From Hydractinia symbiolongicarpus (lineage: Eukaryota; Cnidaria; Hydrozoa; Anthoathecata; Hydractiniidae), in assembly GCF_029227915.1 (NCBI RefSeq), contig NC_079881.1:17831501-17895500 (forward strand): 64,000 nt of DNA, read 5' to 3'. The translations under genes were made by a program, and so were the position numbers. The first letter of the stretch is position 1, and every line of letters starts with the position of its first letter. A model generated the notes under the pieces. It saw nothing but the letters and a program-made list of their open reading frames with translations, was not told the origin of the DNA and did not search any database. Positions 725 to 50,504 of this stretch are shown here, in pieces.

Positions 725-1032
725 CAGACCCGTTTCACGCAGTGGAAGACCAAGTTAGTAAACTTGGGCACCTTACTGAACTGGGATAATAAGTGGGGTC
801 GTTGCATCCAAAGGCAATCCGAAAGCAAACCCCCTTGCTAAGCTTCTTTTAAGTTACCAGAAAAGAGTGAGCTGAACCCTTTACCCTCTGGGTATTGACG
901 GTAAACTGGTTTGAATGAACTAGCTGGGGTAATACAAAAGCGCTCAGATTTACCTTTTCCTCCCCCATGACCCTGGAAGTACAGGTTTTATAAACGTAAT
1001 GAGAAATGTAAAAAACAGAAAGAAAAAGCGGA
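725..1032 (-). repeat. 3' UTR of USP-LINE copy A
   Basis: Read on the minus strand, this stretch matches the 3'-untranslated block that follows the protease domain in copy D (about 25560-25830) and the fragment at 12355-12650. Shared landmarks are the conserved AGCAAGGGGGTTTGCTTTC block (here reversed near 825-845) and the TTACTAACTTGGTCTTC-like block near 745-765. It defines the 3' end of the retrotransposon copy that lies to its right. Confidence 0.75.
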
Positions 1033-3046
1033 TCAACAACGAACGTAACAAAGAATATAACATGAACTGTTGTTGAGAATAGGTGGAGAACATTGGCAAA
1101 CCACTCTATCGTTGCAGTGGTACCAAGAATTTGTGCTAGGATCCTTAGCATAAGCCCAATAATTACCTTCGGTCAACATACAGGAGTGATTATATGTCGC
1201 TAACAATGAGTAGTTCTGATTAAACATTGTATCCGTATCACTGACGAGAGGTAGTTGCAAGAGAGAGTCACGTAAAGAAACACGTTCACGAGATGTTTAC
1301 CATGTTTCAAAAACCTTTTAAGATGCAGGAATAAGACTTCATTACTCCTGCTGATTTGCGTTTCTCTAGCACTCCATGTGCAAAGCATTGCGGACAAAAC
1401 CACTTGTTTCCATCAGTTAGAATTTCCAGCTCTAAAAATTTGCTGACACAAGACGGGGTTTTAGATGTCATTGGCAGGGATAAAATGTCCTGCATTTCGA
1501 CATTTACCGAGGTACACAGGCAGGTGTTACAACTTACAGACATTGAGATTTCTGCAGCAATCGGGGAAAATCCCTAAGTGCGTCCAAAACCACAAACAAA
1601 ATCTCTCCTACATCTTGCTGATTATTAAATTGGAAGTCCACTTTCCCATCAGAGTGCATTTGACGTTCAAGGGCCCAGAGAAAATTTAAAGGGTCAACAG
1701 GTGACAATGATTGCTTCAACTTCGTCATGTTAAGCGAAACAGACCTCGCAATAGGTGACAAATGAAACGATTCTGAACCACTTTGGCACCAGAGTGTTGG
1801 AATGGTACTTAATACTTCGAAATGGCGTTGACGTAACAAGTGTTGCATTTGTTTAAAAAACGATGTTTTTATAGACACTAATTGCTTGAGTGTCACTTTT
1901 ATTTTGGCTAACCTTTTTAGAAGGCCCCTTTCGGCGAGATGAAACACCCTTGGTCTCTCCATTGGGCAAAGCCTGCTTGGATCTGGGTAATTGCATTAAG
2001 GAGTCAGTTGACCAAACATTGGATTCACGTGCCAGCCAGATACAAAAAAAAGACCTCATACTGATTTTACCGAGATCATTTGCAGTGGAATAAGCAAGTT
2101 TGTTGGTGAAACCCATTCTTTTTAAACAGGCAGTGGTGGTTCTTGCACAATATCCTCTTGCTCCTACTTCCACTGCGAAGAAATCAACTTGCCAGCCATT
2201 AACCATAATCACATTCATTAAACAGGAATATTTGGCAACTTTGGTGGAGTGCCAAGCATTCATGTTTTCCTCACATGGGCAAGTGAGTTCTACAATAATA
2301 ACGCGCTTAAGGTCATTTGAATATAACACAAGGTCTGGTTTAAGCTCAGAAATGGCAATATGGCTAGGAAACACATAGTTCGAGTGTGTGTCAGCAACAA
2401 TCTTCCAATCTTTGGCCAGGTGCAGTATACCTGACACTTTAGATTTTGTATGTGCCTTTGACCCGGCTCTCAGAAAGGTTATTTTTTGACAATTTTTAGG
2501 AGGTTCAGAAGGAAGCTCAAAAATGAACTTTTTCAAAGTTTCTACCAAATGGGTAAGTACAGAATCGTGTCTAAAGGTATATTTACCCTGGGAAAGAGCA
2601 GTTTTACAAGCACCAAGAATGTGAGCAGAAGTGCAAATTTCTTTGTGACATAGGAAGCATGATGGTTCTGTATTTATTTTCCACCTCCTTAGGTTACTTG
2701 GTGATGGCAGAACATCGTAAGTGGATTGCAGGCAGAAAGATAAGAGATTAGGAGGAGTTGCTAGGATGTTCTTCCATGAAAGATCAAACTTTACGTAGTT
2801 CTCCCATCTTGTCCATTGGCCCTGCACCTGAAGTTGCAGTGACTTAGATAGATAGCTTTCCTCGTCAATCTCAGCCGATGTTTTTTGCGATTAACTTTCT
2901 GTACTTGTGAGTGGTTTTTGGTGGTATTACTTCCACTTTACAAATGCCAAGACCGGTTCGTCCACGCTGTACAGGACCCCTTATGGTCTTGTACTTTAAT
3001 TCACCATCAGCTATGTCAACTGCATCGCTCACCTTCCAAGAACCTG
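1033..3046 (-). pseudogene. USP-LINE copy A: 5'-truncated LINE polyprotein (zinc finger, REL endonuclease, USP)
   Basis: This is the C-terminal half of a non-LTR retrotransposon polyprotein on the minus strand. The longest open piece (2827-1853) carries, in order, a CCHC zinc finger (CFLCHKEICTSAHILGAC), the REL endonuclease core (KPDLVLYSNDLKRVIIVELT, with a conserved D, then E..T) and the motif VEVGARGYCAR. A ubiquitin-specific protease follows across frameshifts. Its Cys box near 1815-1850 has lost one base against copy D, so the frame breaks, although the Cys codon survives out of frame. The CPQC zinc-binding pair and the His-box region follow, with GNYWAY in place of the usual GHYWTY. 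Homology to copies C and D extends up to about 3046, where the element is cut off next to a tyrosine-recombinase retroelement. The RT domain is absent. The copy is non-functional. Confidence 0.85.
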
Positions 3047-4597: not shown

Positions 4598-4907
4598 CAC
4601 TTTACTAGTCGCATTCAGATATGATTTTTCCTGCAGTGACACAGATTCTTTCTCCTAGTTCATTTATCCCTAACGAGGACTTTTGTTAGCTCATAGTCAT
4701 AAGCACCATTATAGAGCCTGTATATATTTATAGTACCTTTATATTACGTATAGATTTTTATTATGCTTGCTTTAAGACTTATTGCTACACTTGTATGTAT
4801 ATAGCTAGTAAGGGTTTTGTATGTTTTTAATTGTGTTTTGTACATTTTACATATTTCTGAAGAACTAGTACTTTCTGCATTCCGGTGTTTTCGATGGGTG
4901 AGTTTAA
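4598..4907 (+). repeat. Split direct repeat B1
   Basis: A sequence of 310 bp starting CACTTTACTAGTCGC and ending CGATGGGTGAGTTTAA, repeated at 5130-5438. I see only a few differences, for example TTCTTTCTCC against TTCTTGCTCC and ACGTATAGA against ACGTTTAGA. Its place just after the recombinase stop fits the B1 repeat of Ngaro/PAT elements. Confidence 0.9.
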
Positions 4908-5129
4908 TGTTCTTATAAATACTTGTGTTTATAAGGGTTTAAATTCCCCCAGTGATACACCTTCAGACCCACATTGAAGTTGTCTCACTTCACCATGTGC
5001 TCAGGGACATCCCCCTTGGCATTCCATGATGCATTGCAAGGTGGTATAAAAGAGCCATGTGCATAGCATCTTCCTTTTCAGTTCTTCAGCCTTTTCAGCA
5101 CCGCCTCCCTCCCTTCTACATGTGTTTTT
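4908..5129 (+). repeat. Putative A2 repeat with TATA-like promoter
   Basis: A unique spacer between the two B repeats. In Ngaro/PAT elements this position holds A2, a copy of the 5'-terminal A1 repeat. A1 is not in this truncated copy, so the identity is inferred from position. It contains GGTATAAAAGAGCC near 5043, a good TATA-box candidate. That would fit, because A1 is where transcription starts. Confidence 0.55.
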
Positions 5130-9559: not shown

Positions 9560-9800
9560 TTCTTTGCCCTTTGTGTGGGGTGCAGCCTATTAATGACCAA
9601 TGTACTGCCACTCTTCCACTAGCCAAATCAACAGTTTATGCTGGCACCATAAATAAAGGCAACACACGCTATGTGAACTCTATTCTGCAGGTATTGCAGC
9701 CCTCCCAAGACTTTGGTCACAAATATTATTTGAATCAACCTTTCCCTCACCTTACCAAGCTGCAACCATCAGGTAGTCAAAATTTGGGCCACTACTGAAT
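9560..9800 (+). pseudogene. USP-LINE fragment B1: degenerate protease Cys box
   Basis: The translation contains TINKGNTRYVNSILQVL, clearly the USP Cys box (consensus G-L-x-N-x-G-N-T-C-Y-x-N-S-x-L-Q) but with Arg in place of the catalytic Cys. The following residues are no longer recognisable as the protease. A 3'-UTR-like block of the same family occurs downstream at 9990-10110, so most of the protease was deleted between them. This is a dead fragment and an independent, older copy relative to copy C. Confidence 0.7.
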
Positions 9801-9989
9801 ATTTGTCACCAGGCTCAGGTGTAATAACCACTACATTTCTGAGCTAGGTTCTGTCCACTTGAACAATTCCTCTCCTGATATACTTTAAAAAAGGAGTTAG
9901 CCCCTCTTTTCCCAGTGGTTTTTATTTATACCAGCTATACCTCATTTTGGTCAATTCTACAATGTAATAGAAGTTTAAACTTTTTTTAG

Positions 9990-10110
9990 AAGTTATAAAA
10001 AAGCCTAACAGAGGGGGCTTGACACCTTGCCTTGTCTATGGGGTTAACAATTGCACTTCTTACCCCAGTTCAGTAGAAGGCAAAGGTTGCTTGCTTTGTC
10101 TTCCGGATTT
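9990..10110 (+). repeat. USP-LINE 3'-UTR block (fragment B1)
   Basis: Contains GAGGGGGCTTGACACCTTGCC followed by a CTTGTCTATGGGGTTAAC-like segment and CTTACCCCAGTTCAGTA. This matches the order of the 3'-UTR block after copies C and D (AGCAAGGGGGTTTGAC, then CTTGTCTTTGGGTGT, then CCCCAGT). It is a decayed 3' end of the LINE family. Confidence 0.6.
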
Positions 10111-10584
10111 ACTGTCCTGTTGCCTTAAGTCTTTTTTGTGTGATGGTTTTAATACCTTTGACATATCACCACAGTTAGGAAGGGCTGCTACTTTTTTTTG
10201 CTGTTATTTGTTTAAACGAAATCCCGTTGAGGAATCCATTCAAGAGCATTTAAAATGTTTTGTATGCTTCTTATCACAAAATGATTTGTTCTCAGTTTCA
10301 TTTTTAATACGTAGACAATTGAAACTTTTGAACGAAATTGAAACTATAATAACAACGTTAATTGCGTGTGACTTTACTCGTATAACAATTTATAACAAAG
10401 CCTCCGTAACGGTAAATTTAAATTGGCATGCAATAAAATTCCCAACTAATGAATTCACTTTATTTTATCCCATGTTTTTTTTTTAGTCAATCAAAATCGT
10501 CAACAAAACGTTTATAAAGTACAGAATATTTTTATAGCGGATATACATTATAGACACTTTTAAAGAAAATACAGGACAGGAAAT
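10111..10584. other. Unassigned sequence between two LINE fragments
   Basis: Holds the rest of a 155-codon open frame with no motif I recognise. Codon content looks random and it ends in a poly-T run. Probably non-coding. Confidence 0.3.
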
Positions 10585-11165
10585 CCCGAGATACTTTTAC
10601 ACATCTGGGATGACTTAACAGAACCGTCGGTTATTGCAAACAATAGCATTACTAATATTTTAACATCGACCACGTCATGCAATTCGTGTATCTTTTCATC
10701 TAGTAGGGATGAGAGGATGACTATTGTGCCACTTGCTACCTCAAGTAGCGTTGCAAACTCCTTTCACTTGTTTTTCCAACCCAAAGAGCTGACTGGCAAT
10801 GACATGTGGCTTTGTCCACAGTGTTCTTCCCTCCAGGATTAGTACGAGAGACGGTTTTTAGTCAGTGTTTGTTGACTCTCCAACTGAAAATATTTACCTG
10901 TGTTGAGGGAAGATCAATAAAAAACAAACAATTTGTTAATTGTATCTCTCACTTTGGCAATATATTATAGGTACGTTCACATCCTGCAGACAATGTATCT
11001 TTTACCAACAAATACAAACTAGTGGCAATTATAAATCATTCAGGCACACTAGCAATTAGGCATTTTTTAAAGATCGGAATGTAGATAAGTGGTTAAAGTG
11101 CGATGACAGGGCAGTAGTTAAGGTTAAGCCTTCGATATAAATGAATCAACAGTGTATGTGTTGTT
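10585..11165 (+). pseudogene. USP-LINE fragment B2: second half of the protease
   Basis: The nucleotide sequence is closely similar to copy C from 16650 onward (the two share GAGATACTTTTACACATCT and then long near-identical stretches). It encodes the Zn-binding CNSC...CPQC region (VANSFHLFFQPKELTGND) and the start of the His-box region. There are many frameshifts and stops, including a stop just after CPQCSSLQD. The His box is damaged: the AAGHYRAF segment of copy C is deleted. This is a 5'-truncated dead copy of the copy C subfamily. Confidence 0.8.
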
Positions 11166-11873
11166 CTTTCTCAAGCTGTGCTTTGCAAATGGGGGAAGAT
11201 TCCTTTTCCTGGCGGTTTTATTACCCGGGTTGTTATTTTCACAAGCAGCCTACCGTAATTCAGGAGTTTGCTCACTCTCCACTCTCTTACAAAGTAATTA
11301 AAAGAAGCTAAGCAAGGGGGTTTGACAATTTCTCTTGTCTTTGGCTGTGACGGCCCCACTTTTAACCCCAGTTAATTAGGGAGGCCAAGTTTGCTCACTT
11401 TGTCCACAGGGTTAACGATCTTGATGTATCCACAGTTATCGTTTTAAAAAGCTTTGCAAGGTGGTTTTAAATTTGTTCTTCAGGTCTTCGTGCCCACGCA
11501 TTTAACCCCAGTAACTTCAGGCTGGTCCTGACATAGGGCTGGTCTCAAGCATCAATCACCTGTGCATGGCTGGGTGTCGTAACGGATGTGGAAATCTACC
11601 GCCAGGTTTACAAGTCTGGGCGCATGGATGGTTGTCTTCTGTTCTTGATAGTTTTATATTTATATTTACTTGTATTTGTTTCTTTCTATGCTGGATAGCA
11701 CTTTGTAACTGTCAGTAGTTGTTTGCGATGTATTGTATATGTAGAGGGTCTTTACTTTAATTACCTTGATTCGGCAGTCTATCCTTGTAAAAAAGGATAT
11801 CTTGAACTGAATTAAGATTTTAGAGGGTGTAACCTCTACAATTCAAAAACAAAAGAGTCAGTAGGCTAGTTCC
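11166..11873 (+). repeat. 3' UTR and 3' end of USP-LINE fragment B2
   Basis: Aligns with 17274-17985 of copy C throughout. Shared parts are the AGCAAGGGGGTTTGACAAT block, GGTTAACGATC, CCCCAGTAACTTCAGGCTGG and the terminal hairpin TAGAGGGTGTAACCTCTA at about 11820-11838, followed by CAATTCAAAAACAAAAGAGT. The two copies diverge just after AGAGTCAGTAG, which marks the 3' terminus near 11873. There is no poly(A) tail. Confidence 0.8.
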
Positions 11874-12354: not shown

Positions 12355-12780
12355 CTTCTTGTCCGCAATGCTTTGCATATAGAGAGAGCACTCATTACGT
12401 TATGAAGCCTGTACTTCCATGGTTACGGGGGAAAAAAGTGAATCCGAGCGTTTCTTTATTACCCCAGCTGGTTCATTCGAACCAGTTACTGTCAGTAGCC
12501 AAAGGGTAAAGAGTTCAGCTCACTCTTCTCTGGTAACTTGTAACAAGCTTAGCAAGGGGGTTTGCTTTTAGCTTGTCTTTGGGTGTAACGACCCCAGTTC
12601 AGTAACGTGCCCAAGTTTACTAACTTGATCTTCAGGCTTGACAACCGTGCTGGCCATAGTCAAAATATCTACAGGCTGGTCCTGTTATATGTGTTCTATC
12701 TGTAACCAGTCCCGTTTATGTTGTTAGCTCCCTCGTTTGTCGTATTATTTGCCTTGACCGTTTTTTTTTGACAATTCTCT
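12355..12780 (+). repeat. USP-LINE 3' fragment of the A/D subfamily
   Basis: The first 50 bp match the protease Zn-finger coding segment of copy D (TGTCCGCAATGCTTTGCA, 25134-25151). The sequence then jumps to the 3' UTR of that subfamily: CTGTACTTCCA..., CGAACCAG..., GTAAAGAGTTCAGCTCACTC, AGCAAGGGGGTTTGC, and CCGTTTATGTTGTTAGCTC near 12715. An internal deletion removed the rest of the protease. It lies directly upstream of copy C, so two subfamilies abut here. Confidence 0.75.
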
Positions 12781-12916
12781 ATGGATACGATTTTGTTTTG
12801 ACTACTCCGGACCCTAATCTATGGTACGTGCCAATAGATAAATGGCTAATGGGTTAATTAGTCTCTAGCGAATCCTCACAGTCGTGGTGAAGCTGTAAAA
12901 ATTATAGCCTTGCCCT

Positions 12917-15750
12917 GTGCGCCAGGCAACGCAGGGTGGTCCCTTGTCCTGTGCATATTGTTTCACTGTAGTTCTGAATTTAAACAACCCAAAACCTCAA
13001 AGCTGCTACAGCGATAAGGATATTGATTTTGAGGTAAATAGATCAGCTAATTCTTGCCAGTCAGATCAAATTCCTCCCTTGAAAAGGTGCAGCGTCGTCC
13101 TTCAGGATATCTTCTCAAAACGGGGTGCTGAAAAGTTTCAGACAGCGAATACGTTTCCATATAAAAACCACACGAACCATCCCTGTCACATTGATGAGGA
13201 ATATCTTGAAGATTTGCGAATCAAAACACCAATAAAATGGGGTAAAATGATCGATCCTCTTTGGTCTACCTTGGACATAGCTGTTTCTAACAGACTAAGT
13301 AGTTGTCTAAACCTATGCGAATCATTATCAGCTAAGGTGAAACTTATCGAAGACACTATATATGAGGAAGGTTCTAAAACATTTGGCCATCCAGAAACTA
13401 AAAAGTTTAAAAATCTTTCTGGGAAAAATAGGAGGACTTTGTGGTCCATTAAACTAATACAGTTAAAAAACTGTCTTGTGGTGCAGGTAATGACTGTGTC
13501 CGACCCTGTCCAGAAGTCAGATCTACAGGGGCTGCTAGCAGAAACGCAAGAAAAAATTATGGTGATACGTTGTGCAGAGAGACGGTTAAGGAAAAAGATA
13601 AGGTTCAGAAAGGCGCAGTTTGCGTTCAGGGCAAACCCGTTTGCAGCTGGTAAGGCTTTGCTTGATCCAAAATGCAAAACCACACTGTGTGTTAACCAAC
13701 AGACCTTAGACAAACATAAATCTTTGGCTGTTCAGGATAAGTTCTATAACGTTCCATTGACGAATCTAGACGGTCTTCCTGCTGCCCCATCAATTCCGAA
13801 AGCTTTTAACTCGTCTTCTCTTAAATACAAAGATTTTTTAGCTCTTCTAGCAAGCAGGAGAAACGCTTCATTTCCTGGTGTTAATGCAATTCCTTACCAA
13901 GTTTATAAAAAGTGTCCTAAGATTAATACCCTCTTGTTTAATGTTTTTAAATGTTGTGTCACAAATTGTGTCGTACCTGTTCAATGGCGTATTGCTCGTG
14001 AAATTTATATACCTAAATGGAAAACTTCTATGGAGTCAAACATAAAGACTTCCGACCTATAGCAATTTCAAATGTCGAAGGTAAACTTCTCTTCAGCCTT
14101 GTATCAAGTCGGTTGGAAGCTCATATCATAACAAACAACAAGTTTATAAATACATCTGGCCAAAAAGGTTGTATGGAAAAGGTTCCGGGCTGCTGGGAAC
14201 ATATTTCAATGGTTTGGTCAGCACTCAAAGATGCCCGTTCATCAAAGTCAGATCTAGCAACTATTTGGCTAGATGTCGCAAATGCATATCCCTTAATTCC
14301 TCACCGTCTTATCTTCTTTGCTCTTCAGCGGTGCAGTGTTCCACCACCTTGGATTGCTTTTATTAAAAACTACTACATTGGTATCTACAGTAAATCATTT
14401 TCTGAATATGCACCAAGTTCTTGGCATAAAGATATGCGAGGCATATTTGCTGGTTGTACGCTATCCATTGTCCTCTTTTTAGCTGGCATCAATATTATTC
14501 TTGAATATACCTTATTGGCTTCTGTTCCAGGATTTATCACATCAAGCGAGGTGGCACTTCCTTTAATGAGAGCTTTCATGGACGACATTAACCTTATGTC
14601 TTCATCTGTTTCGGGTACTCAAAAGCTATTAGACAGATGTGCTACCGCATTCAAATAAGCTGGTATGGACTTCCGAACCCAGAAGTCGCGAAGTATTGTT
14701 ATTATAAAAGGCAAGTCTCTGAATTCTGCACATTTCACCGTCCAAAAGCCTGCAAACCCTACAGACTTTTCTTCCTATATACCATCTATCCACTCCATGC
14801 CAGTACGCTTTTTAGGTCGCGACATAGATGGTTCTATTTCTGATAGGAAAGCTATTGGCTAGCTTCAGGAGAATTTATCTGTAGGCCTTTCAACTATAGA
14901 AAAGTTGTGGATTTTACAACACTTTCTAATCCCGCGTATCCAATGGTCATTGCTGATTTATGAAGTCTCAATGTCGTGCGCCAGTACTCTTGAGCAAAAG
15001 GTATCATCTTTTATAAGAAAGTGGCTTCACCGGCATCATTCCACCACCAATTTGTGTTTATATGCGTCATGTACACCCTGTCCGTTACCGATAAAAAGCC
15101 TAACTTCCATACTAAAATCATCTAAAATTAGTGGACACTTGCTCCTAAGGGATTCGAAGGACCCATTGGTTTCAGCAGGCTTGCCAATATTAAAGGCGGG
15201 TAAATGGAGTGTATTGGGCACAGTTAGGACGGCTGAAGCTGAAATAAAGGTTAGATCCATAATAGGTTCACCTCAACATGGTAAAAGTGGCCTAGGTATG
15301 CATCACAACCCTAAAGTACCCACAGTCAAGGGATGTTACCCTTACAGAAGATTGGTAACAGAAACTGCTAGAGACATCGATGCAGAAGACCGTATAAGTA
15401 AGGCTATGCAGTTACAAGTGCAAGGGTACTGGACCAGATGGGAGAATTACATTAAAAACGATCTCTCCTGGAAATCTTTGCTGGGCATGGCCCCAAACTT
15501 GCTTGCATTTTGTTTAGGCTCTACCTACGATGTTCTCCCATCACCAAGCAATTTCAAGAGGTGGCGTTTGTGCACTGAAACCTCCTGTTTCTTATGCGGT
15601 AAGCAAGTGTGCACCACAGCCCACATCTTAGGTGGCTGCAAAACTGCTCTTACACAGGGTCGGTTTACATTTTGCCACGATTCTATTTTGCGTCTACTTT
15701 TAGAGCTTCTTACTGTACTACTTCTATCTCTTCCCCGGCAAAGCAACTAA
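12917..15750 (+). pseudogene. Reverse transcriptase and zinc-finger region of USP-LINE copy C (frameshifted)
   Basis: This region would copy the element RNA into DNA at the nicked target. Piece 1 (12917-14062) holds a basic N-terminal half and the RT fingers (FPGVNAIPYQVYKKCP). Piece 2 (14017-14658) holds motif 2a-like DFRPIAISNVEGKL, motif A WLDVANAYPLIPH (Asp codon 14272), motif B-like GIFAGCTLSIVLF and motif C AFMDDINLMSS (Asp pair 14581-14586). Piece 3 (14665-15750) continues with VRFLGRDIDG and LWILQHFLIPRIQW, and ends in a CCHC finger, C-x2-C-x7-H-x4-C, at CFLCGKQVCTTAHILGGC. The catalytic aspartates are intact, but the frame changes twice and a stop lies near 14862. The listed first codon is a GTG and no good ATG is visible, so the true N-terminus is unknown or lost. 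Confidence 0.8.
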
Positions 15751-15835
15751 ACAAAATCTATTTTGTTAGAGCAGGTGCTCGTCCCCCTAGTAAAAAGTCT
15801 AAGCCCTAGGTCTCGTACATCTTACCTCCGATTGG

Positions 15836-17273
15836 TTGCTTCTTTCTAACTTAAAAGGTGGATTCGTTTTCCCTGGTCATATCGCAATAACTTCGCTTAG
15901 ACCAGATCTTGTCATGTACTCTAACAACAGTAAACGTGTAATTTTCATAGAGCTTACCTGTCCAAGTGAGGAAAATATGGAAATCTGGCATTCAAAGAAG
16001 CTTTTGAAGTATTCACCCTTAGTTGAAATTATTAAACAGAACGGATGGAATGTAGATATTTTCGCAATTGAAGTAGGTGCTCGAGGTTATTGCTCCCGAT
16101 CAGTGTCACTGTGTTTAAAAAGATTAGGTTTGAACAACAACAAAACTTTCCGAGCTGCGCGTAACCTTGCTGATGTATGTATGAAATCCTCTTTTTGTAT
16201 TTGGATTGCAAGAAATTCAAGTGAATGGAATCAAGATGGACTTATCTCCATATCCTCCACACCAACGGGGCCTGATTCTCAAATGCCAAAAACAAAAACC
16301 TTGCCACAGAAACAAAACCAAACTTACTGTAAGAACAACCCGTCTGAAAAGCCTTTCCCTGATTTGCCTACCCACAAGACTGCTTCAATAAATTTACATG
16401 CTGGGCTTATAAATAAAGGTAATACGTGCTACGCCAATTCTATTTTGCAAGCTTTAACTGTAACTCCTACACTTTGGTCACAATGTGCATCTGAGTCCTC
16501 TTATGTTTCTCCTCTCTCCAAGTCATTTTCACTGAACTTATCTCTGCTGTATAAATCACGCTCTGCTATAGACCCGTCCAACTTTCTCAGAGCTTTGCAG
16601 TGTAAGATCTCAAGCATTAGGGGCGCTCCATTTAATATTAACACTCAACAGGACGTTCCAGAGATACTTTTACACATCTTGGATGTATTAACAGGACCGT
16701 CGGTTATTGCAAACAATAGCATTACTAATATTTTAACGACGACCATGTCATGCAATTCGTGTCTCTTTTCATCTAATAGCAAGGAGAGGATGACTATTGT
16801 GCCACTTTGGTACCTTAAGTAGCGGTGCAAACTCCTTTCACTTGTTTTTCCAACCCGAAGAGCTGACTGGCAATGACATGTGGCTTTGTCCACAGTGCTC
16901 TTCCCTCCAGGATAGTACAAGAGAGACAGCTTTTAGTCAGTGTGGAGATTTGTTGATTCTCCAACTAAAAAGATTTACCTGTGTCGAGGGAAGATCAGTA
17001 AAAAACAACCAATTTGTTAATTGTATCTCTCACTCTGGCAACATATCGGAGGTACCTTCACATCCTGCAGATGATGTATCTTTTACCAACAAATACAAAC
17101 TAGTGGCAACTATAAATCATTCAGGCATACTAGCAGCAGGTCATTATCGGGCATTTATTAAAGATCGGAATGTAGACGAGTGGTTGAAATGCGATGACAG
17201 GGCAGTAGTTAGGGTTAAGCCGTCTGATATAAATAACTCAAGAGTGTATGTGTTGTTCTTTCTTAAGTTGTGA
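15836..17273 (+). pseudogene. REL endonuclease plus ubiquitin-specific protease of USP-LINE copy C
   Basis: Piece 1 (15836-16822) starts with the REL endonuclease, a PD-(D/E)XK-like nuclease that nicks the target. It shows RPDLVMYSNNSKRVIFIELT, then the conserved IEVGARGYCSR. After a Lys/Pro-rich linker comes the USP Cys box GLINKGNTCYANSILQAL (Cys codon 16427-16429) and NINTQQDVPEILLHILD (QQDxxE motif). A single extra base near 16815 shifts to piece 2 (16797-17273): LFFQPEELTGND, the CPQC zinc pair, LLILQLKRF, and the His box YKLVATINHSGILAAGHYRA (His codon 17142-17144) with WLKCDDRAV. All the USP landmarks are therefore present in order over about 290 residues. In cells such proteases remove ubiquitin from proteins; what it does for a retrotransposon is unknown. 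Confidence 0.85.
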
Positions 17274-17985
17274 AATCGCAAATTTTGCTTTGCAAAAGGG
17301 GTAGGATTTCTTTTCCTAGTGGTTTTATTACCCCGGCTGTTATTTTCACCTACCGTAATTCAGGAGTTTGCTCACTCTCCACTCTCTTACAAAGTAATTA
17401 AAAGAAGGTAAGCAAGGGGGTTTGACAATCTGTCTTGTCTTTGGGTGTGACGGCCCCACTTTTAGCCCCAGTCCATTAGGGAGGCCAAGTTTGCTCACTT
17501 TGTCTACAGGGTTAACGATCCTGATGTACCCACAGTTATTGTTATAAGAAGCTTTGCAAGGGTGGTTGAAATTTCTTTTTCGGGTATTCGTGGATTTACG
17601 CCCACGCATTTTACCCCAGTAACTTCAGGCTGGTCCTGACATCGGGTTGGTCCCAAGCGTCAATCACCTGTGTAAGGCTGAGTGTTGGGATTCCGTAACA
17701 CATGTGGAAAGCTACGGCCAGGTTCACAAGTCCTGGCGCAAGGGTGGTTATCTGCTCTTTTTTATAGTTTCTAATTTATAGTTTTACATTTATTTGTTTC
17801 TTTCTATGTCGTATAATAATTTGTAACTGTCAGTAGGTGTTTGTGATGTAATGTTTATAAGGGGTCTTTAGTTCAATTACCTTAATTCTGCAGACTATCC
17901 TTGTAAAAACGGAGATCTTGCACTGACTATAAATCTCTAGAGGGTGTAACCTCTACAATTCAAAAACAAAAGAGTCAGTAGACTA
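17274..17985 (+). repeat. 3' UTR of USP-LINE copy C with terminal hairpin
   Basis: Homologous along its length to 11166-11873. It contains the AGCAAGGGGGTTTGAC block near 17411, CCCCAGTAACTTCAGGCTGG near 17615 and the hairpin TAGAGGGTGTAACCTCTA at about 17938-17956. The shared sequence ends shortly after AGAGTCAGTAG. Structured 3' ends of this kind are what LINE reverse transcriptases bind to begin target-primed synthesis. That role is inferred. Confidence 0.75.
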
Positions 17986-21423: not shown

Positions 21424-23262
21424 AGCTAGCTAAATGTTTTCCTCCTTCCTATAACAAAAACAGGCTTTTGCGACCAACGCTGTAGTGCAAAGCTGTGGAG
21501 ATAATCCTTAACATTGTTTTATTACGGCGAAAAGATTGACTTTGTTCGCAAATATCATTATCTCCGTAGTTAAATACGCACAATGACCAGAATGCATTGC
21601 AAACTAGTCCCTTTACGGGAACGGGCTATTAACGTTATTAAGTAAACTGACAGGATTTAAGGATTAAGGATTTGCTTTTTCTTATAAAGTTTTGTTCAAA
21701 CTAAACTAAATTAGTTCAAGTATAATAGCTGCCTACCTCCAAGAATGCAGTAATGCTTTGATTTTTTGCGCAATAACCTCTTTTGTACTTTAGTGAATTT
21801 TTCTGGATAAGTTCCTTTCCTCAACTTTTGTTTTCAAATACATCTATATTTTTGCTTTGATTAACGTTTCAACGTTTTCTTGTAAATTAAGCAGATATGA
21901 CAAATATTCGCTTTTCCACAAAAACAAAACTGCTAGTTGTTTTTGCTCAGCTGTCTGATAAAGCACAAGTGTTCAGATCAACACAGATCACGCAAGGCGT
22001 GAAGGTTTGTGTTCCAATATAAAAGGTGTGAAGGTTACATACTTCAAAAGATTCTTAAAGATTTTCATAATCTAGAGAATCGATGGGATACGAAAGTCAC
22101 AATTTTGTCTTTGGTTTTGTCATTTATCTAATTTAACGCGGCAAACTATCTAATTATTTTCGCGGTACCGCGTTAATAATAGGAATTAAATTATGAAGTA
22201 TTTTATAATTCGAGACTGCGGTAATATTTAGAGGAATATATTAGCCAATCCGCACAAAATTAAAAGAAAAAAATACAAAATTTTTTTTTCGCTATTTTTT
22301 ATTTTTATTTTATTTTTTTTTTCAAACTATTTTCTATCCCTTCTTTTCTTCTTTCTTCAAACTTATTTTATCTCCTCCGATGTTTTTTATTTGTTCACTG
22401 AGCTCCTTTTTCTGTGTTCTATAAATAAATCCTGCCGGAGTCCCCATGCCTGCTTTAGGCAGATTGTCAAAGTAACTCCTTTTTTCTAAAGAAAGAATGT
22501 TAATTTTGACAAAAATTTAGGAACATGTTCGATAGTTTATTGTTTTTACAATGGCAATAGCATGTTTATCTTTAACAAGAGTACCGGGTCTATTTTCTTG
22601 TTCAGTTGTTACAATTGAAATAATTATAGCAGTCCATTGCGTCCATCTGTGGATATTATAATCTGAAAAATGAGAATTAAAATTAGGGAAGTGGATTTGA
22701 TTTTCAATTAACCTGAAAATCAAGAATTGCTAATTAAAAATTTAAAACTTAAAAAGATCAAAACACAGCAATTAAAAAATCAAATTCAAATTTTTTCTTT
22801 TTAATGTTTTTTAAGTTTCATCACACACACGATGTCTCCTCCCAGAGTGTCAACCTTCTTCCTGGAGCAAAAAGAAGACTTAGAAAAATGAACATTAATT
22901 TTGGTTCTGATTGGTGTAGTTAGATTTCTTAATTTTCTCTTATAAAATTAAGGGCCTCTGTAATTAACTGATCTTAAACACTTTCATTTCACGACTTTTT
23001 GAACAGAAGAAATCCAAGAAAGAATGGTTGACGCGTATTGAAAGAAAATCAATTTAAGCGATGTTGGTGATAAAAAGAATATTACGTTATTGAAGTTATT
23101 ATTTCGGTTTGTCTGTTCAGTATTCATATTACTGTGGAAAGTTTATCATTTCTTAAACATGATAATTTAGTAGGTGACGTTTCGGGAGATCCTTCTCCCA
23201 TCATCGGGCAAAGTAAAATGATGTTGAGCATGTATTTATATAGAAGTGTAAGTAGCCCTGAC
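21424..23262. other. Gene-free AT-rich stretch
   Basis: No gene recognised. There are poly-T and T/A-rich tracts near 22270-22330. At 23178-23215 the string TTTCGGGAGATCCTTCTCCCATC contains a short inverted repeat. Homology to the LINE begins at about 23263. Confidence 0.4.
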
Positions 23263-25445
23263 ACCGACATTGATTTCTCACAGTATATCCCATCTATTAT
23301 CCCATCTATTCATGCCTCGCCAGTGCGATTTTTAGGCCGCATTATTGATTGTTCTATCTCAGACAGGAAGTCCATCAACGAATTGGAGGAAAAGCTGATA
23401 GAAGGGCTTGGTGTCATTAATAAGTCCTTATACACTGGAGCTCAAAAACTTTGGATCTTGCAACATCTTTTGATCCCGCGAATTCAGTGGCCACTGTTAA
23501 TATACGAGGTTTTGATGTCTGTTGCTGGGCGCCTAGACCAAAAGGTTTCAGTGTTCATACGAAAATGGCTAAACTTGCACCGTTCCGTCACAAACATCTC
23601 CCTATATACTGACTCCTCTCTTTGCCCTCTGCCTATTAAGAGCCTCATTTCTATTTTAAAATCTGCGAAGATTAGTGGTCACCTACTTTTGCAACACTCC
23701 AAAGATCCAATTCTGTCAACACTCAATCCATCTTTAAAGGAAGGTTTTTGGAAGGTGAGCGATGCAATTGACATAGCTGAGGGTAATTAAAATACAAAAC
23801 CATAAGGGGTCCTGTACAGCGTGGACGAACCGGTCCTGGCAATTGTAAAGTGGAAGTAATACCACCAAAAACCATAAGGGGTCCTGTACAGAGTGGACGA
23901 ACCGGTCTTCGCAATTGTAAAGTGGAAGGGAAGATATACCTTTAGACACGATTCTGTACTTACCCATTTGGTAGAAACTTTAAAGAAGTTCATTTTTGAG
24001 CTTCCTTCTGAACCTCCTAAAAAATGTCACAAAGTAACCTTTCTGAGAGCCGGGTCAAAGGCACATACAAAATCTAAAGTGTCAGGTATACTGCACCTGA
24101 CCTAAGATTGGAAGATCGTTGCTGACACACACTCGAACTATGTGTTTCCTAGCCATATTGCCAATTCTGAGCTTAAACCGGACCTTGTGCTATATTCAAA
24201 TGACTTTAAGCGTGTTATTATTGTGGAACTCACTTGCCCATGTATGGAAAACATGAATGCTTGGCACTCCACCGAAGTTGCCAAGTATTCCTGTTTAATG
24301 AATGTGATTATGGTTAATGGCTGGCAAGTTGATTTCTTCGCAGTGGAAGTAGGAGCAAGAGGGTATTGTGCAAGAACCACCACTGCCTGTTTAAAAAGAA
24401 TGGGTTTCACCAACAAACTTGCTTATTCCACTGCAAATGATCTCGGTAAAATCAGTATGAGGTCTTCTTTTTGTATCTGGCTGGCACGTGAATCCAATGT
24501 TTGGTCAACTGACTCCTTAATGCAATTACCGAAATCCAAGCAGGCTTTGCCCAATGTGAAGACCAAGGGTGTTTCATCTCGCCAAAAGGAGCCTTCTAAA
24601 AAGGTTAGCCAAAGTAAAAATGACACTCAACCAATTAGTGTTTATAAAAACATCGGTCTTTTAAACAAAGGAAACACTTGTTACGCCAACGCCATTTTGC
24701 AAGTACTAAGTACCATTCCAACATTCTGGTGCCAAAGTGGGTCAGAATCGTTTCATTTGTCACCTATTGCAAGGTCTGTTTCGCTTAACATGGCGAAGCT
24801 GAAGCAATCATTGTCACCTGTTGACCCTTCGAATTTTCTCTGGGCCCTTGAACGTCAAATGCACTCCGATGGGAAAGTGGACTTCCAAATTAATAATCAG
24901 CAAGATGTAGCAGAGATTTTGTTTGTGGTTTTGGACGCACTTTTCCGCGATTGCTGCAGTTAAAATCTCAACTGAAATCTCAATGTCTGTAAGCTGTAAC
25001 ACCTGCCTCTGTGCAACTCGGTAAATGTAGAAATGCAGGACATTTTAACAATGCCAATGACATCTAAAATCCAGTCTTGTGTCAGCAAATTTTTAGAACC
25101 GGAAATTCTAACTGATGGAAACAAGTGGTTTTGTCCGCAATGCTTTGCACATAGAGAGAGTACTAGAGAAACGCAAATCAGCAGGAGTAGTGAAATTTTA
25201 TTCCTGCATCTTAAAAGGTTTTTGAAACATGGTGAACATTTGGTGAAAGACAACAGAGTTGTTGAATGTGTTTCTTTACGTGACTCTCTGCTGCAACTAC
25301 CTCTCGTCAGTGATACGGATACAATGTTTAATCAGAACTACTCATTGTTAGCAACAATTAATCACTCCGGTACGTTGGCCGCAGGTCATTATTGGACTTA
25401 TGTTAAGGATCCTGCCACAAATTCTTGGTACCACTGCAACGAATA
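23263..25445 (+). pseudogene. USP-LINE copy D: RT C-terminus, REL endonuclease and USP with an internal deletion
   Basis: Starts at DTDIDFSQYIPS, the connector after RT motif C, then VRFLGRIIDC and LWILQHLLIPRIQW, and runs to about 23787, where one missing base creates a stop. At 23797-23930 a segment of about 72 bp is tandemly duplicated. It is followed directly by GRYTFRHDSVLTHLVET, so the zinc finger and part of its flanks are deleted. The REL (KPDLVLYSNDFKRVIIVELT) and the USP are the best preserved of their subfamily. The Cys box GLLNKGNTCYANAILQVL (near 24655-24710) and QQDVAEILF are in one frame. A shift follows near 24960, then CPQC, LFLHLKRFLK and the His box NHSGTLAAGHYWTYVKD with WYHCNE. 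A frameshift just before the end truncates the C-terminus. Dead copy. Confidence 0.85.
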
Positions 25446-26060
25446 AAGCGGTTTGCAAATGCTCTCCACCTATTCTCAACAACAATTCATGTTATATTCT
25501 TTGTTACGCTCGCTGTTGATCCGCTTTTTCTTTCTTTCTTTTACATTCACCATTACGTTTATAAAACCTGTACTTCCAGGGTCTTGGGGGAGGAAAACGT
25601 AAATCCGAGCGGTTTTGTATTACCCCAGCTAGTTAATTCGAACCAGGTTACCGTCAATACCCAGAGGGTAAAGAGTTCAGCTCACTCTTCTCTGGTAACT
25701 TAAAAAAAGCTTAGCAAGGGGGTTTGCTTTCAGCTTGTCTTGGGGTCTACGACCCAACTTATTACCCCAGTTCAGTAAGGTGCCCAAGTTTACTAACTTG
25801 GTCTTCAGGCTTGACAACCCTGCTGTCCTTAGTCAAAATATGTACAGGCTGGTTCTGTCATGACAACCTCCTGTGTAAGGTTGAGTGTTGGGGCCCTGTA
25901 ACACATGTGGAAAGCTAAAGACAGAGTCACAAGTTCTGGCGCACAGGAGGGTTTTTCTTTTTTATATTATATATTTTTGAGATATACATTTTTTCTATTT
26001 GTGTTTGTTCTGTAACTAGTCCGTTTATGTTGTTAGCTCTGTCTTGTGTCGTATTGTTTG
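25446..26060 (+). repeat. 3' UTR of USP-LINE copy D
   Basis: Matches the reversed 725-1032 block and the fragment at 12400-12780: CTGTACTTCCAGGG, CGAACCAGGTTACCGTC, GTAAAGAGTTCAGCTCACTC, AGCAAGGGGGTTTGCTTTC (25713) and CCGTTTATGTTGTTAGCTC (about 26020). This is the 3' end of the A/D subfamily. Confidence 0.75.
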
Positions 26061-27413
26061 TGATTGAAGGATTGTTTTTTCTCTTTAAGATTTTCTCTGA
26101 GAATAGTTATAGGTCCAAGTTGGACAGTACTCATGCTTGTAATAAGCAAGAAAGTGTATTCAGCACCTTCTTCTGGGAGCCTAATCCCAATTTTATTTAC
26201 ACCTACCTTCCCTGTAGACAAGATACTTCAGTGCAGCTTGCTGTATTGTAAACCCTTTTCATTGTAATGAGGAAAACAGTTATATGCGAGGTAATCAAAT
26301 CAAAAACCAATACATGAATAAGCAAATCTAAACCTCCCAGATGTTTTCCACAAGCCGAATAATAAAAGCGAGTGAATTAGATATTAATTGATTGCTGCTG
26401 GGTACGAAAAAAGTATCCCCTAAAAGAATGCTAATACAATGGCGAGAATTGGAATTACAGTAGCGTGGTTTTATTCCTGTGGTATGCAAATAACGCCATA
26501 TATGTGCAAAGTAACAACAAAAGCACAATAAAAAATTAATTTGCAATTAAAAGTATGTTAAATCATGAAAAGAACAAATAAACGTTTATAAAAAACGACA
26601 CATTTAATGACGACATAATTTAGAAATATATTAAAAAGAAATTGTTCGGCGCATATAACATAGTTGGATGGAAATCAATTAGAAAATGAGACTTCCCAAG
26701 TTAACAGGTTTCCAAGCGCACTTAAAACATAGTACTACCACATATTGCACTTTAAATGTTTTATGATACTGTGCCAAATAGATAACACTCAAAATTAAAG
26801 TTCATTTCTTACCTTGGATTTTTAAAGAAGCAAAGATTTTTTTACTTGGTATTTACAAACACCGCAATAAATGCTACTACATTTTAGACCCTTTTATACA
26901 TGTTCAAACTTTATACATTCAGAGCGTGTATTAAGAAAGTTGTCATCTTTATATATTGCAACTTCGAGCTTTTTGTATATATAACGTGCATTTTTTTGCT
27001 GCAAACATTTAATAAATACGGTGCTGTCTCTACTTTGATTATTACCAAATAATTTAACACATCATATAAATCGTATAGCTATAAACACACAAAAAATAAA
27101 CAATAAAGAGAAAGTCAGGTTAATTGTTGTGGGTTCGTTAGACTTTTAACATCCCAAGGCTACGACAAATTTTTCACCAATATCTTTTAACAGAGATGCA
27201 ATCGACTCAGCATGACTTAAAGGTTTAAACTAAAAAAAAGGATAAATAGAACAGAACAAATCTTCTGCTATTTACAGCCGAGTATCGCAAAAAACGACAT
27301 ATTCGATTAAACAATTTTCATTGTTAAAATTAATAGGGACGCTGATAAAAAAGTCTTTCAGTCTTCTTCCGTTAATGCTTTCGCACTCTTCTGTCAGCAA
27401 CATCAATTTCCAT
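26061..27413. other. Gene-free AT-rich spacer
   Basis: No supported coding sequence or repeat. It lies between the LINE copy D 3' end and the left inverted repeat of the DNA transposon at 27414. Confidence 0.4.
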
Positions 27414-34869: not shown

Positions 34870-36819
34870 AGGCTAAAGTCCCAAATACCGGTAAAACTGC
34901 TTTCTTTCATTTCTTCTCAGGTCCAATGCTGCAAATAACGCGCTTATCCTGTGGCTATTTGCTGTGGCCTGCGGCATTTTTAACAGCAAAGCATCGCAAA
35001 CACGGTGTAACGAGTTTCACCCAGAAACATGGTCCCCGAAGTTTCTAATACTTGCGAACAAATATTTATTGTTTTTGTTCACTCCAGCTTGTTGACGTGT
35101 AGTTTCGTCGCAAAGATACTTCAAAGCTGGAATTGTGTCCTCTGCTATAAGCAAAGGGACCAGATGGTTGTTTCCCTTCCCAACATGTAACAAACTTTCA
35201 AGCACTTTACTAGGAGTTGGTCTTAATCGTCCAAACTTTCTGACCTTTGTTTATTGATCCATTCATTATTTATGGCCTCAGTCCACTCGTCGATTGTCAG
35301 TCGGCCAGGCTCTTCGTGCGTTTAACAAAGTTAATCTCGTGCATGCGCTGTCCCGTATTGCAACAAATTCACTTTCGAAAGTCTTCTGGCTTTTGTGAAG
35401 CATGACTTTTACAGCGTGATTTCTCACCACCATAACGTTGTCTTTATCTGGCACCTTTTCAGGTTTGCGGAGATTTGTTTGGCGCTTAGTTATTTAACAT
35501 ACCTTCCGCATTTCTTATTCGTTGGCCTTGTTGTCTTTAGAGAGAAACAATGCTTTAAAGCTCCTGTTTGCGAAACTACCACTTCTTCGATAGCCAATCA
35601 CAAGGCTTGAAAATCACACCGCCGGAACATGTCCGCTGCGTTTCTGTGTACCTCGTTAATTTCATGTCTTAAAAATTCGTGGCCTTTTTGGTCTTCCCCA
35701 TTTCTTCTTTTACACGGTCTTCTTCTTTATGGACTCTTTCAATGTGTTGGATTACCTTCGAACTACCTTGAAACTCTCCACAGAAAATACAGAGTCTGGA
35801 AGGTCGTTCATAGTCTTCTCGACGCCTATAATTTTTCTTTTTCTTAAAATGCACATCACATTGAAAAATACCAACAAAGAAGGTTTTTTTTCTGTTCACA
35901 GGAATTTCATAAGTGGTATTTTTAGCCGTGTTGATAATATAGGAAAATTGTCATTTTTTGAATTTTTGCGAATCGAAACTTTATATACTATGTTCTGAGA
36001 TTGATTTTGTGGAAAATCGCATATAAATCCTCTCATACTTTTTCTTTTGAAGAAAATGAAGAAAGTGCCTTCCCTGAACATCGACATCAATCGAGCTCAT
36101 CTCATTGCCAATTGTCTAAATTGTGATATAACTACTTTACAAAATACATCTTTCGGACAGAAAAGAATTGAGGATAAAATACGCGGCAAAAATCAGAGTA
36201 AATTAAACCATTGTGAAAAGTTCAGAAAATTCACCAAATAATCCAGAGTCAGTCAACAGATTAAAATTATAAATTAATTAGCTTTGACACACGTTTATAA
36301 CAATATCAAAATTCTTACCAGGTTGATCACTATTCTTAATTCTCAATTGTTCTAGACAGTAGACAGATTGTAACCTGAAATTTCAACCTGATATTCTTAT
36401 AAAGTATGTTCTTATAGTAGCGTTATAAAGAGTTATGACCTGCGATCTTTATCTGTTTTTTGATTAATTACCGCCAATCAGCTATGATTAGATATTTCGT
36501 TAAGATATTCTTTGCCAATAAAGCGATTTTTTGAATCATACTTTATCTAATTGAAATCACCACTGCAAAGAATTAGACATGTTCTTCCTAAAAGGTTGTG
36601 TTTCAGGTAAAAAAATGCTATTCGAGTTATTAACGTTAAAAAGAATCTCGGAGTTTTTAATCTTTAAATGCTTCGCAGCGAGAAACATGTCAGCAAATCA
36701 TTTTGCTTTTTCATTTTTGACTTACCAGTTGAAAGTACCAATCTTCACCTCAAGAAACACCGTCATTCTTCTGAAAAAAGGTTTGCATTAAATGAATAAA
36801 CAATTTAAATATTAAATAT
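34870..36819. repeat. Tandem duplication, copy 1 (about 1.95 kb)
   Basis: Starts GGCTAAAGTCCCAAATACCGG and ends AATTTAAATATTAAATAT. The same sequence recurs at 37166-41354, once the nested LINE at 37429-39675 is removed. The copies share the same damaged gene and differ by small indels and substitutions. Confidence 0.85.
34880..35899 (-). pseudogene. C2H2 zinc-finger / recombinase-like C-terminal domain pseudogene, copy 1
   Basis: On the minus strand, an upstream piece (35899-35669) has a C2H2-like finger, RLCIFCGEFQGSSKVIQHIE followed by RVH. After frameshifts come DNVMVVRNHAVKVMLHKSQK, CTRLTLLNARRA, an EWTEAINNEWINKQR segment one frame over, and HVGKGNNHLVPLLIAEDTIP. The end is NFGDHVSG, a stop (TGA where the family has Trp), then SLHRVCDALLLK and RISALFAALDLRRNERKQFY. 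The LLNARRG...NEW...HLVP...HMGH-like order is that of a large cnidarian protein family whose C-terminus resembles tyrosine recombinases. At least three stops and a frameshift make it a pseudogene. The family assignment comes from recognition, not a search. Confidence 0.6.
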
Positions 36820-37428: not shown

Positions 37429-39675
37429 TGTTTTTTTTTTTTTTTTTTTTTTAACCCTTCATAAGTAATATACAACACTTGTTGGCTCTGTTTTTATACC
37501 GATAGGCCGCCGGTGTACATTTTTTATTTTATTTTTTTATTTTTTTTAATAAATCATTCGTTATATCGTCGACATGACATTTGACAGTTCGATGTCATGG
37601 ATGTAATGTTCTTTCTTCAGCGAACGAGAACCTCTAAGGCATAACAACATTGACCGTAACAGGGAAAAGGAAATTTTTGTTCTAATATAATTGACTGCTT
37701 GTAATGCAGGTATATCTCTTTTCTCTGCAATCATTTCAGATATACGTTTGTAAAACAGCTTAAACTCTCGCCCCATTCCACCATTTGTTGAGAAAACCAA
37801 TGGGATGAACGACCCGCTATCAACATCAAGCACACGTTCATTGTACTGGCGTTTCTTCTCATCCTCGTTGCGTTTAAAGCATTTATTGAGTTCCAAACCC
37901 TGGTATCTCCGAGCGTTTAGGTCAAAAACCCGTATATCCAAAAATACCCTTTTACCAGGAGTCCAGAACCCAATAGCGCTTGTATCAAGACGAGCTTCTT
38001 GACTTCTCTTGGCGCTTCGTGGTTGAATTTGCTCACCATCCAACTGAATCAACATTGGTTCGCGTCGAACGTCCTTACACACTTCGTTTAGAAAAACAGA
38101 AGTGATATCACGAACTTCATTGTGTCTCATCGTGATAAAACCACATTTCTTGCAGGATAAAGCATGAGTCACGTTAAATTTGCTACCACATGCACAATCT
38201 GAAGGGAGTCTAGGTAGTGCCCAATTATAACGGATACGTAACGCATCCCTAAATTGTTCTTTGTTTAAGTCATACATCAGTTCTTTCATAGGTAAACTCG
38301 TCAGCCAATTCGATGCTCCCACCATCATGTTTACATTATTAATCCTCTTCTGTTCTTCATTCATGTTTGATCTTAACAGCTCGAGCTTTTCTTTATTTTG
38401 TTGACGCCGTTCGCTTTTTATCACTGCAATTGTCTTACCACTGTCATCGTCGATCTTTCCCACGATTTCTTTTTGAAGCAGGTACGTCAATTGTTTCGAG
38501 TTTTCCAGCTCGACTGGAGCGAATTCGCATATATTTTTCAAACCAAGTCCTCCCAATCTGGGCGGCAGTGACATAAGCATTCGTTCTTCATCATTTACGA
38601 CATGACCATCAGTTATCGCTGGAATAAACTGATGTCTGATTACGTCTTCTACAGGATCAAGAAATTTTTCAATTCGTGGAATTGTGCGAACGAAGTAGGA
38701 AAAGCGATGTTGGTATCCACTAATATAGCAGGTATATGCCTCTTGCGGTTGGGTTATCGCAATTCTGCACAGCATTGACAATTCTTGAACCCATTGGTTT
38801 ACCATCTTATTACAGTACTCCTTTTCATAATCATCGCTGCCAATTACTGCGCCTAGATGTCTTTCGCCACGTGTAGTAATCTGAATGTTCGTATTTCGAA
38901 ACAATTCGTTGGCTTTTTCAACATACTGTTCTTTAACAATCAACCACGATTTTTGAGGTTGCTGAAAGTACCCGAACAATGGCCCTTTTTTTCAGATTTT
39001 TCCACCATAAAATCAATGATTCGCATTTTCCTACCGCCGTTAGATCATCAGCAAAAGCGACCATTTGATTTTGTCCTGTAATCACTGTTAACATCAATTC
39101 AAGTAGTTGTGTTATACCTATTGCATACATTGCCATACCAATGGGATCGCCTTGGGTAGTTCCTTCTTTCGAGCGTAGTTCAATCCCACCAATCACAAAT
39201 AGCCTTGCTGGTATATTGTAGCAATTTGTCACATAATTTGATAAGATCGGGCATAATATTCGAATATTGTGAATCAGAGGTCGTCTGTTGATACTGTTAA
39301 ATGCATTTGCTGCATCTACTAATAATACTGCTTCTGATTCTTCACTCTCAAACATATCTCGCATCGCATGAATGGCAGCTTCACTCCCCGCTCTTTGACC
39401 TGCACACATTTGAATCTTGCTACATGATTTAATCACGTCCTCCCTCATCACCGCCATTATAACTTTTCCACAGATTCTCCGCAAACTTCTCCCACGCCTA
39501 TTGGTCGCACACCAGGTCTTTTGTTTAACGGTACCAACCTGCTTGCCAAGAAACCTTCTAATGATTCATCATCTACATATTCTGTACATAGCTTTTTTAT
39601 AACATTCGCAATCGCTGTTCGTAGATCTCCTCCACAATCGCCGTACACTTTTGATGTTAGAGGTTTTCTCCAAAA
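37429..39675 (-). mobile_element. 5'-truncated REL-type LINE with poly(A) tail, nested in the duplication
   Basis: An insertion of about 2.25 kb on the minus strand. Its 3' end is a run of about 22 T on the plus strand (37431-37452), meaning a poly(A) tail, followed inward by a short 3' UTR. Its 5' end is truncated within the RT coding region. The empty site is preserved in copy 1 of the duplication, so both junctions are known exactly and show a 22-bp target deletion instead of a duplication. It is a different lineage from the USP-LINEs, which lack poly(A). Confidence 0.9.
37561..39660 (-). pseudogene. RT and REL endonuclease polyprotein of the nested LINE
   Basis: The 5' piece (39660-39457) has RLVPLNKRPGVRPIGVGEVC, the classical start of an R2/R4-like RT. 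The next piece (39484-38985) has motif A LLVDAANAFNSINRRPLIHN, motif B GTTQGDPIGMAMYAIGI and motif C MVAFADDLTAVGK. A frameshift in a run of seven T near 38985 leads to the third piece (38979-37561): KSWLIVKEQYVEKA, GERHLGAVIGSDDYEKEYCN, LPPRLGGLGLKN, a C-x-C...H-x4-C finger (CACGSKFNVTHALSCKKCG) and the REL nuclease RLDTSAIGFWTPGKRVFLDI with RVFDLNAR. It ends with FALLRSMLLC-like FSLLRSMLLCLRGSRS. Apart from the truncation it is broken at one or two positions, so it is a fairly young copy. Confidence 0.85.
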
Positions 39676-50271: not shown

Positions 50272-50504
50272 CAGCAGTTCATTTCCCAAATCTTACTGAA
50301 GGTGAAGGACGTGTGCGATTTGTTGGTGTTTGCGATTGGTAAACTTCAGCTATGCTAATCCGTTTTTAATTCTTTTTCTATAGCTAGCTATATTTTATTA
50401 TTTTTCCATAAGTAGTAGAGAATTATATTTATTCCTTCTCTTATATAATTTTATTTATTTACTTACTGCTATAGATCTAAAATTTATGGTGAGCTGCAAT
50501 CAAA

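Follow-up and report, generated by a model that had tools for sequence, protein, structure and literature searches.

The DNA analysed here, a window of 64,000 nucleotides from Hydractinia symbiolongicarpus, contains a dead copy of a long interspersed nuclear element (LINE), hereafter copy A, in which an R2-like machine, made up of an N-terminal region, a reverse transcriptase (RT), a CCHC knuckle and a restriction-like endonuclease (REL), is followed by a C-terminal ubiquitin-specific protease (USP). We consider it about evenly balanced whether this USP deubiquitinates the element's own protein and partners and thereby delays the proteasomal removal of its ribonucleoprotein particle (RNP). The initial annotation had placed a USP fused to the C-terminus of a REL-type LINE at 15836-17273; the element extends from near 12.8 kb to near 18.0 kb of the window, and that interval is only its C-terminal half. 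The parts of copy A, with the sequence just 5' of it, are the following:

12392-12685, forward strand: sequence resembling a 3' untranslated region (UTR), 5' of copy A, 86% identical to positions 4645-4954 of the 5369-bp unit of family X (see below), perhaps left over from a unit that adjoined it head-to-tail
12782-12957, forward strand: 5'-UTR-like sequence, 84% identical to positions 153-332 of the family X unit
12908-14062, forward strand: frame of the N-terminal region, without a Pfam family
14017-14658, forward strand: RT (RVT_1, E 1.7e-11) with the motifs AGCTLS and FMDD
14863-15750, forward strand: thumb/linker and CCHC knuckle CFLCGKQVCTTAHILGGC (zf-RVT, E 0.0041, under the Pfam cut-off)
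15809-16237, forward strand: REL with the motif RPD...IELT...E..N...K
16403-16807, forward strand: N-terminal half of the USP (Cys box GNTCYAN, QQDVPE, first CxxC pair), in the REL frame
16845-17273, forward strand: C-terminal half of the USP (CPQC, His box NHSGILAAGHYRAF, CDDRAV), in a frame separate from that of the N-terminal half
17274-17985, forward strand: 3' UTR, ending where the homology between copies A and B stops (17985)

The stretch 13079-13996 shows 48% identity with the N-terminal region of an intact Hydractinia open reading frame (ORF). Every motif named beforehand (Cys box GNTCYANS, QQDxxE, CPQC and His box) was present in copy A, and REL does share a frame with the N-terminal USP half (15803-16822, UCH at 6e-12 in Pfam). 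The C-terminal half of the USP occupies another one (16794-17273, UCH at 8e-20) and, because of frameshifts and stops at about 14040, 14658, 14862, 15750-15803 and 16803, RT and USP are not in a common frame in this copy, contrary to the continuous polyprotein first described. As copy A is split over several frames, an accidental join of a LINE fragment to a host USP gene would be conceivable in it. We give such chance adjacency next to no probability: it is refuted by the copies in the window, the pairs found over the genome, the intact ORFs and the database proteins that combine RT and USP. The window itself holds three independent REL-USP copies belonging to two families, since tblastn with parts of copy A detected a second family, REL then USP, at 23383-25443 on the forward strand and 3044-1039 on the reverse strand (copies C and D, listed below), whose REL has 47% identity to that of copy A.

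The genome searched comprised 480,894,487 bases in 76 contigs; the published assembly, as described in PMC10411563, totals 483 Mb, with 15 chromosomes and with 42.6 Mb in its largest scaffold. With the REL query 150 matches were scored among 569 candidates, and with PF00443 150 among 1015. At least 62 of the 150 scored REL matches were followed on the same strand, within 2 kb, by a scored USP, versus 2 of 150 in the control (USP upstream or on the opposite strand), and 62 is a lower bound because only part of the REL and USP candidates was scored. Six of the scored PF00443 matches sit in open frames of exactly 1426 codons. These six loci (L009-L014) carry one common ORF of 1421 aa counted from the first Met, the other five departing from the L012 version at 1 to 6 residues and at 7 to 9 bases. 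The L012 ORF gave UCH at 5e-32, RVT_1 at 8.3e-16 and zf-RVT at 5.3e-5 (under its cut-off), and the ORF of a second family, L016, gave UCH at 3.8e-31 and RVT_1 at 4.7e-17. That a USP is fused C-terminally to a REL-type LINE, as proposed, is thus borne out by intact single ORFs elsewhere in the genome, those of L009-L014 combining RT and USP. Over the window and 26 fetched loci, chosen partly for long frames, REL lay immediately upstream at 28 of 38 USP places and RT within 3.5 kb at 23; the ten places without REL include truncated pieces and a fragment at 46.4 kb of the window. That a second class of USPs in the genome belongs to another transposon was rejected, as L029, L031 and L033 carry RT and REL upstream and L030 carries REL. 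At L028, of the same USP group, a USP stands alone, adjoining a RecQ-like frame; this locus, like L032 and L034, has the look of a copy truncated at its 5' end.

The same join recurs in protein databases. The REL-USP frame gave 247 protein matches, 120 of which were listed; the leading 15 had PF00443 without exception. PF00443 and PF00078 occurred together in 37 of the 46 matches to pieces of the whole protein, and the 55 matches to the relative P0159 comprised 43 proteins with RT and USP, 10 with RT only and 2 with USP only. These proteins, together with the intact ORFs, contradict the view that RT and USP sit on separate transcripts or adjoin only at copy A. Named sources among the matches were Hydractinia, Mytilus (P0164, a relative lacking the USP) and one protein of a Pseudomonadales metagenome-assembled genome, probably eukaryotic DNA within the bin. 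Three NCBI models of Hydractinia, P0002, P0021 and P0085 (named USP51-like, USP50 and USP35-like), also match the LINE REL-USP query, at least P0002 containing REL and USP of the L016 family; USP gene counts in such genomes therefore include LINE pieces. The Hydractinia repeat table (PMC10411563) has the classes CRE/SLACS and R2/R4/NeSL and leaves 48% of repeats unclassified; USP-bearing LINEs may be filed under those classes or among the unclassified repeats.

The element has the characters of a REL-type LINE, namely an RVT_1 RT, a knuckle and an endonuclease 3' of the RT in one ORF, and 5'-truncated copies. Over 31 aligned rows, C538, C541, H550 and C555 of the knuckle and P645, D646, E661 and K677 of REL were invariant; we take these to be the CCHC knuckle and PD-(D/E)xK-like endonuclease motifs, and AGCTLS presumably stands in place of R2's RT motif. 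The PDB chains nearest to the RT are those of R2 and LINE-1. The best PDB sequence match of RT-REL was 9nl2 (1.5e-17), and the best fold matches of the RT-REL model were again R2 (PDB 9nl2, 9nl3, 9dou and 8gh6, 758-801 columns), a likeness that holds for domain order only, the superposition of the whole model being loose (root-mean-square deviation about 15 Å). Like R2, the Hydractinia LINE has RT, CCHC knuckle and REL in a single ORF; unlike R2, it ends in a C-terminal USP. Dualen/RandI LINEs carry a deubiquitinase-type protease of the OTU family, Dualen also having an apurinic/apyrimidinic (APE) endonuclease, and thus differ from the Hydractinia LINE in protease family. According to PMC4640811, NeSL and Utopia are REL-type LINEs too, some with a cysteine protease of ubiquitin/SUMO type, which is Ulp1-like and N-terminal, whereas here a USP (C19) is C-terminal; a Pfam scan of two Hydractinia ORFs detected no Ulp1 domain. 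NeSL and Utopia are also target-specific, and 11 insertions of the Hydractinia LINE showed no target motif. PMC2836005 describes Ulp1, OTU or C19 domains in DNA transposons (Ginger1, Mutator, Helitron) and mentions in passing a single Trichomonas transposase_11 protein with a C19 peptidase. That protein shares the peptidase family of the Hydractinia LINE but is not reverse transcribing. No USP-bearing LINE was found in full-text searches confined to an open-licence PMC library, without Repbase, subscription journals or preprints beyond that library, in agreement with what the initial annotation had supposed. As far as that literature shows the USP-bearing LINE is new; a Repbase name or an unpublished one may exist.

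The USP domain shows the peptidase C19 boxes in correct order (Cys box, QQD box, His box and two CxxC pairs; UCH 5e-32), and its structural model shows a USP fold. In 56 of 56 aligned LINE USPs, at identities of up to about 30%, the Cys, the His, the box Asp and the four zinc Cys are kept, with N in 44, D in 7 and S in 5 at the third triad position. Between L012 and L016/L017, nonsynonymous divergence (dN) was as follows by domain: N-terminal region 0.50-0.56, RT 0.21-0.22, REL 0.31, linker 0.87-0.92, USP 0.52; synonymous divergence (dS) was saturated or above 2 in every domain, and for this reason most domains have no dN/dS ratio. Changes in the USP common to copies C and D with respect to L012 were 10 synonymous and 3 nonsynonymous (ratio of nonsynonymous to synonymous changes per site, pN/pS, 0.08; small counts), and the private changes of C and D, mostly post-insertion, gave pN/pS of 0.34 and 0.61 (small counts). 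The L016-L017 comparison of the USP, with a ratio of 1.04 from very few changes and at least one decaying copy, lends no support to constraint. Two points weigh against the reading of the USP as protector of the element's RNP: the third triad residue is Ser, not Asn or Asp, in 5 of the 56 USPs, and the rapid evolution of the USP can equally reflect weaker constraint.

A full USP was present in 56 of the 73 rows of the RT-REL tree. The main clade has it in 52 of 58 rows, the other six stopping inside the USP (four) or before it (P0155 and P0157). In the sister clade (12 rows, support 88) four rows have a USP and eight (P0181, P0183, P0184, P0185 and P0188-P0191) end 2-40 aa past REL, the USP-less P0183 being sister of the USP-bearing P0187; P0164, P0165 and P0192, outside both clades, have none. 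This distribution implies either a gain before the main clade with loss in sister lineages, or several gains. P0183 and P0187 both have N-terminal C2H2 zinc fingers (precomputed PF00096).

RT and USP distances were correlated over 40 rows (Mantel r 0.773; largest of 2000 shuffles 0.359) and over 56 rows (r 0.851; largest shuffle 0.405), and in the 40-row trees 18 of 37 splits were in common (shuffle mean 0.17). These comparisons show that RT and USP descended jointly. Two proteins speak against strict joint descent: P0163, whose RT groups with P0156 and whose USP groups with P0159 and P0167, and P0175, with its RT beside P0173 and P0176 and its USP beside P0142-P0144; in both, the USP module was probably exchanged between LINE lineages. 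In a free USP tree including six cellular USPs, these were interspersed with the sister-clade USPs. With five cellular USPs (numbers this small make both analyses weak tests), a constraint of all 56 LINE USPs as one clade was not rejected (approximately unbiased test, p-AU 0.334), and constraining the 52 main-clade USPs gave a better likelihood than the free tree; a single origin of the main-clade USP seems likely. That the USP is a chance-captured passenger of little effect would agree with its lack in some sister lineages, and is very unlikely given the catalytic and zinc residues kept in all 56 rows, the constraint and the congruent RT and USP trees. A distant USP match (L035, IMG/VR; 25% identity) lies on a 56-kb contig classed as viral.

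By analogy with R2, the LINE protein would bind its own RNA and insert by target-primed reverse transcription. The USP, carried on the RNP by a flexible linker, would remove ubiquitin from the element's own protein and close partners, and proteasomal removal of the RNP before insertion would thereby be delayed; the USP would be a host-facing accessory, outside the insertion chemistry. A USP on a flexible linker of an R2-like enzyme, constrained and yet dispensable in sister lineages, fits an accessory acting on RNP ubiquitination. It is possible, with a clearly lower probability, that the USP works instead at the insertion site, deubiquitinating H2A/H2B or repair and replication factors, which would keep the nicked target open or let the join be repaired to the element's advantage. 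It is tethered beside the endonuclease, USP1 (with FANCD2), USP46 and USP21 are among its close folds, alongside many others, and the Ginger paper proposes a DNA-repair role for transposon-borne ubiquitin/SUMO proteases (PMC2836005). However, the nearest sequences, USP8, USP15 and USP2, do not point to chromatin, fold similarity carries no substrate information, and sister lineages manage without a USP. A position in the polyprotein behind a long flexible linker would also suit a maturation protease cutting the element's own polyprotein; we find this improbable, because USPs need a ubiquitin or ubiquitin-like unit and Pfam calls none in the ORF (APG12 at E 0.042, sub-threshold), and USP-less sister ORFs retain the same RT-REL. 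The functions suggested at the outset (own RNP, chromatin, repair factors) are reasonable candidates, and we chose to rank protection of the own protein first and chromatin or repair action second. It has long been known that some LINEs bear Ulp1- or OTU-family cysteine proteases, which have no assigned function. The USP is a third family, whose chemistry, probes and inhibitors are well known, and the LINE has intact, near-identical copies in a hydroid kept in the laboratory, which makes the use of ubiquitin by a retroelement directly testable; the recurring RT-USP join is a handle on the use that mobile elements make of cellular ubiquitin.

Family X, to which L012 belongs, was the one family whose insertions were examined this deeply, and its head-to-tail loci (L009-L014, L018 and L026) were picked for long frames. 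Its unit measures 5369 bp, without poly(A), and its insertions share the 3' end CCTTTTTCAT. Five of 13 insertions are truncated within the unit and eight include a full unit, which in all eight is preceded upstream by a 3' piece of another unit (111, 204, 291, 480, about 760, about 1030, about 2030 and >2300 bp long); one insertion contains two full units. At all nine junctions read, 45 bases were identical, and none of the 13 insertions ended at unit base 1, which implies that the template spans the junction. Three forms of this are conceivable: a transcript of several units, a circular template, or jumping between templates without ever halting at that point. Penelope-like elements have full units behind a truncated unit in direct orientation, and full units of the Hydractinia LINE likewise follow a truncated one head-to-tail; unlike in Penelope-like elements, no GIY-YIG was detected in the Pfam scan of two intact ORFs (RVT_1, zf-RVT and UCH were seen). 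In contrast to the R2 clade with its single 28S rDNA site, 11 insertions had no common site or flank motif, their flanks being dissimilar. Site-specific insertion and target-site duplications were rejected on the same insertions (longest shared flank word, mean 5.09 vs 4.97 in mismatched pairs). On contig C13, five REL matches spaced 5296-5305 bp form a satellite-like array (G000:C13:23678942-23700482), in which a stretch (L038) runs through RT-REL-USP into the next unit; the units are 99% identical with the same broken frames, and the array therefore expanded after decay. Tentatively, and with a probability well below even, the sequences might be read as those of an old, diverse LINE clade in which an active deubiquitinase is a lasting part of the retrotransposition protein, countering ubiquitin-based host defence on LINE RNPs, and which may spread through multi-unit head-to-tail RNA templates, each full-length insertion carrying an upstream 3' end, a possible promoter.

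The further USP-bearing copies in the window are:

9622-11178, forward strand: copy B, USP fragments of copy A's family, internally interrupted
23245-26262, forward strand: copy C (family X), with RT end, thumb, knuckle, REL (24085-24513), USP (24652-25516) and 3' UTR
745-3046, reverse strand: copy D (family X), with thumb, knuckle, REL (2431-2003) and USP (1859-1036)
46373-46729, forward strand: old remnant of the C-terminal part of a USP, sharing about 33% identity with the USP of family X

Copies A and B have 86% identity (10584-11868 vs 16657-17985), extending beyond the USP end. Copies C and D are 92% identical and belong to the L012 family, with 93-95% DNA identity across longer stretches, and the 3' UTR of copy C reaches the last-but-one base of the family X unit. 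At the protein level they match the young family at 97-99% in REL and at 87% in the USP. The private changes are uneven across domains (in the USP of D, in thumb and knuckle of C), which suggests from sequence that both are mosaic copies. Beside the fragment at 46.4 kb, a neighbouring REL or RT was looked for and none was found. Elsewhere in the window, a DIRS-like element at 50493-54630 contains an RT, a match to a Dam-like methyltransferase just below the cut-off and a tyrosine recombinase, and a second reverse transcriptase (RVT_1, 1e-8) at 37561-39565 on the reverse strand is followed by a 476-aa frame without a Pfam match. Nearby are direct repeats, 92-99% identical, at 35152-36779 and 39671-41335. 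A frame with a methyltransferase domain (PF08241, 2.7e-21) at 59798-60520 is possibly a host gene exon.
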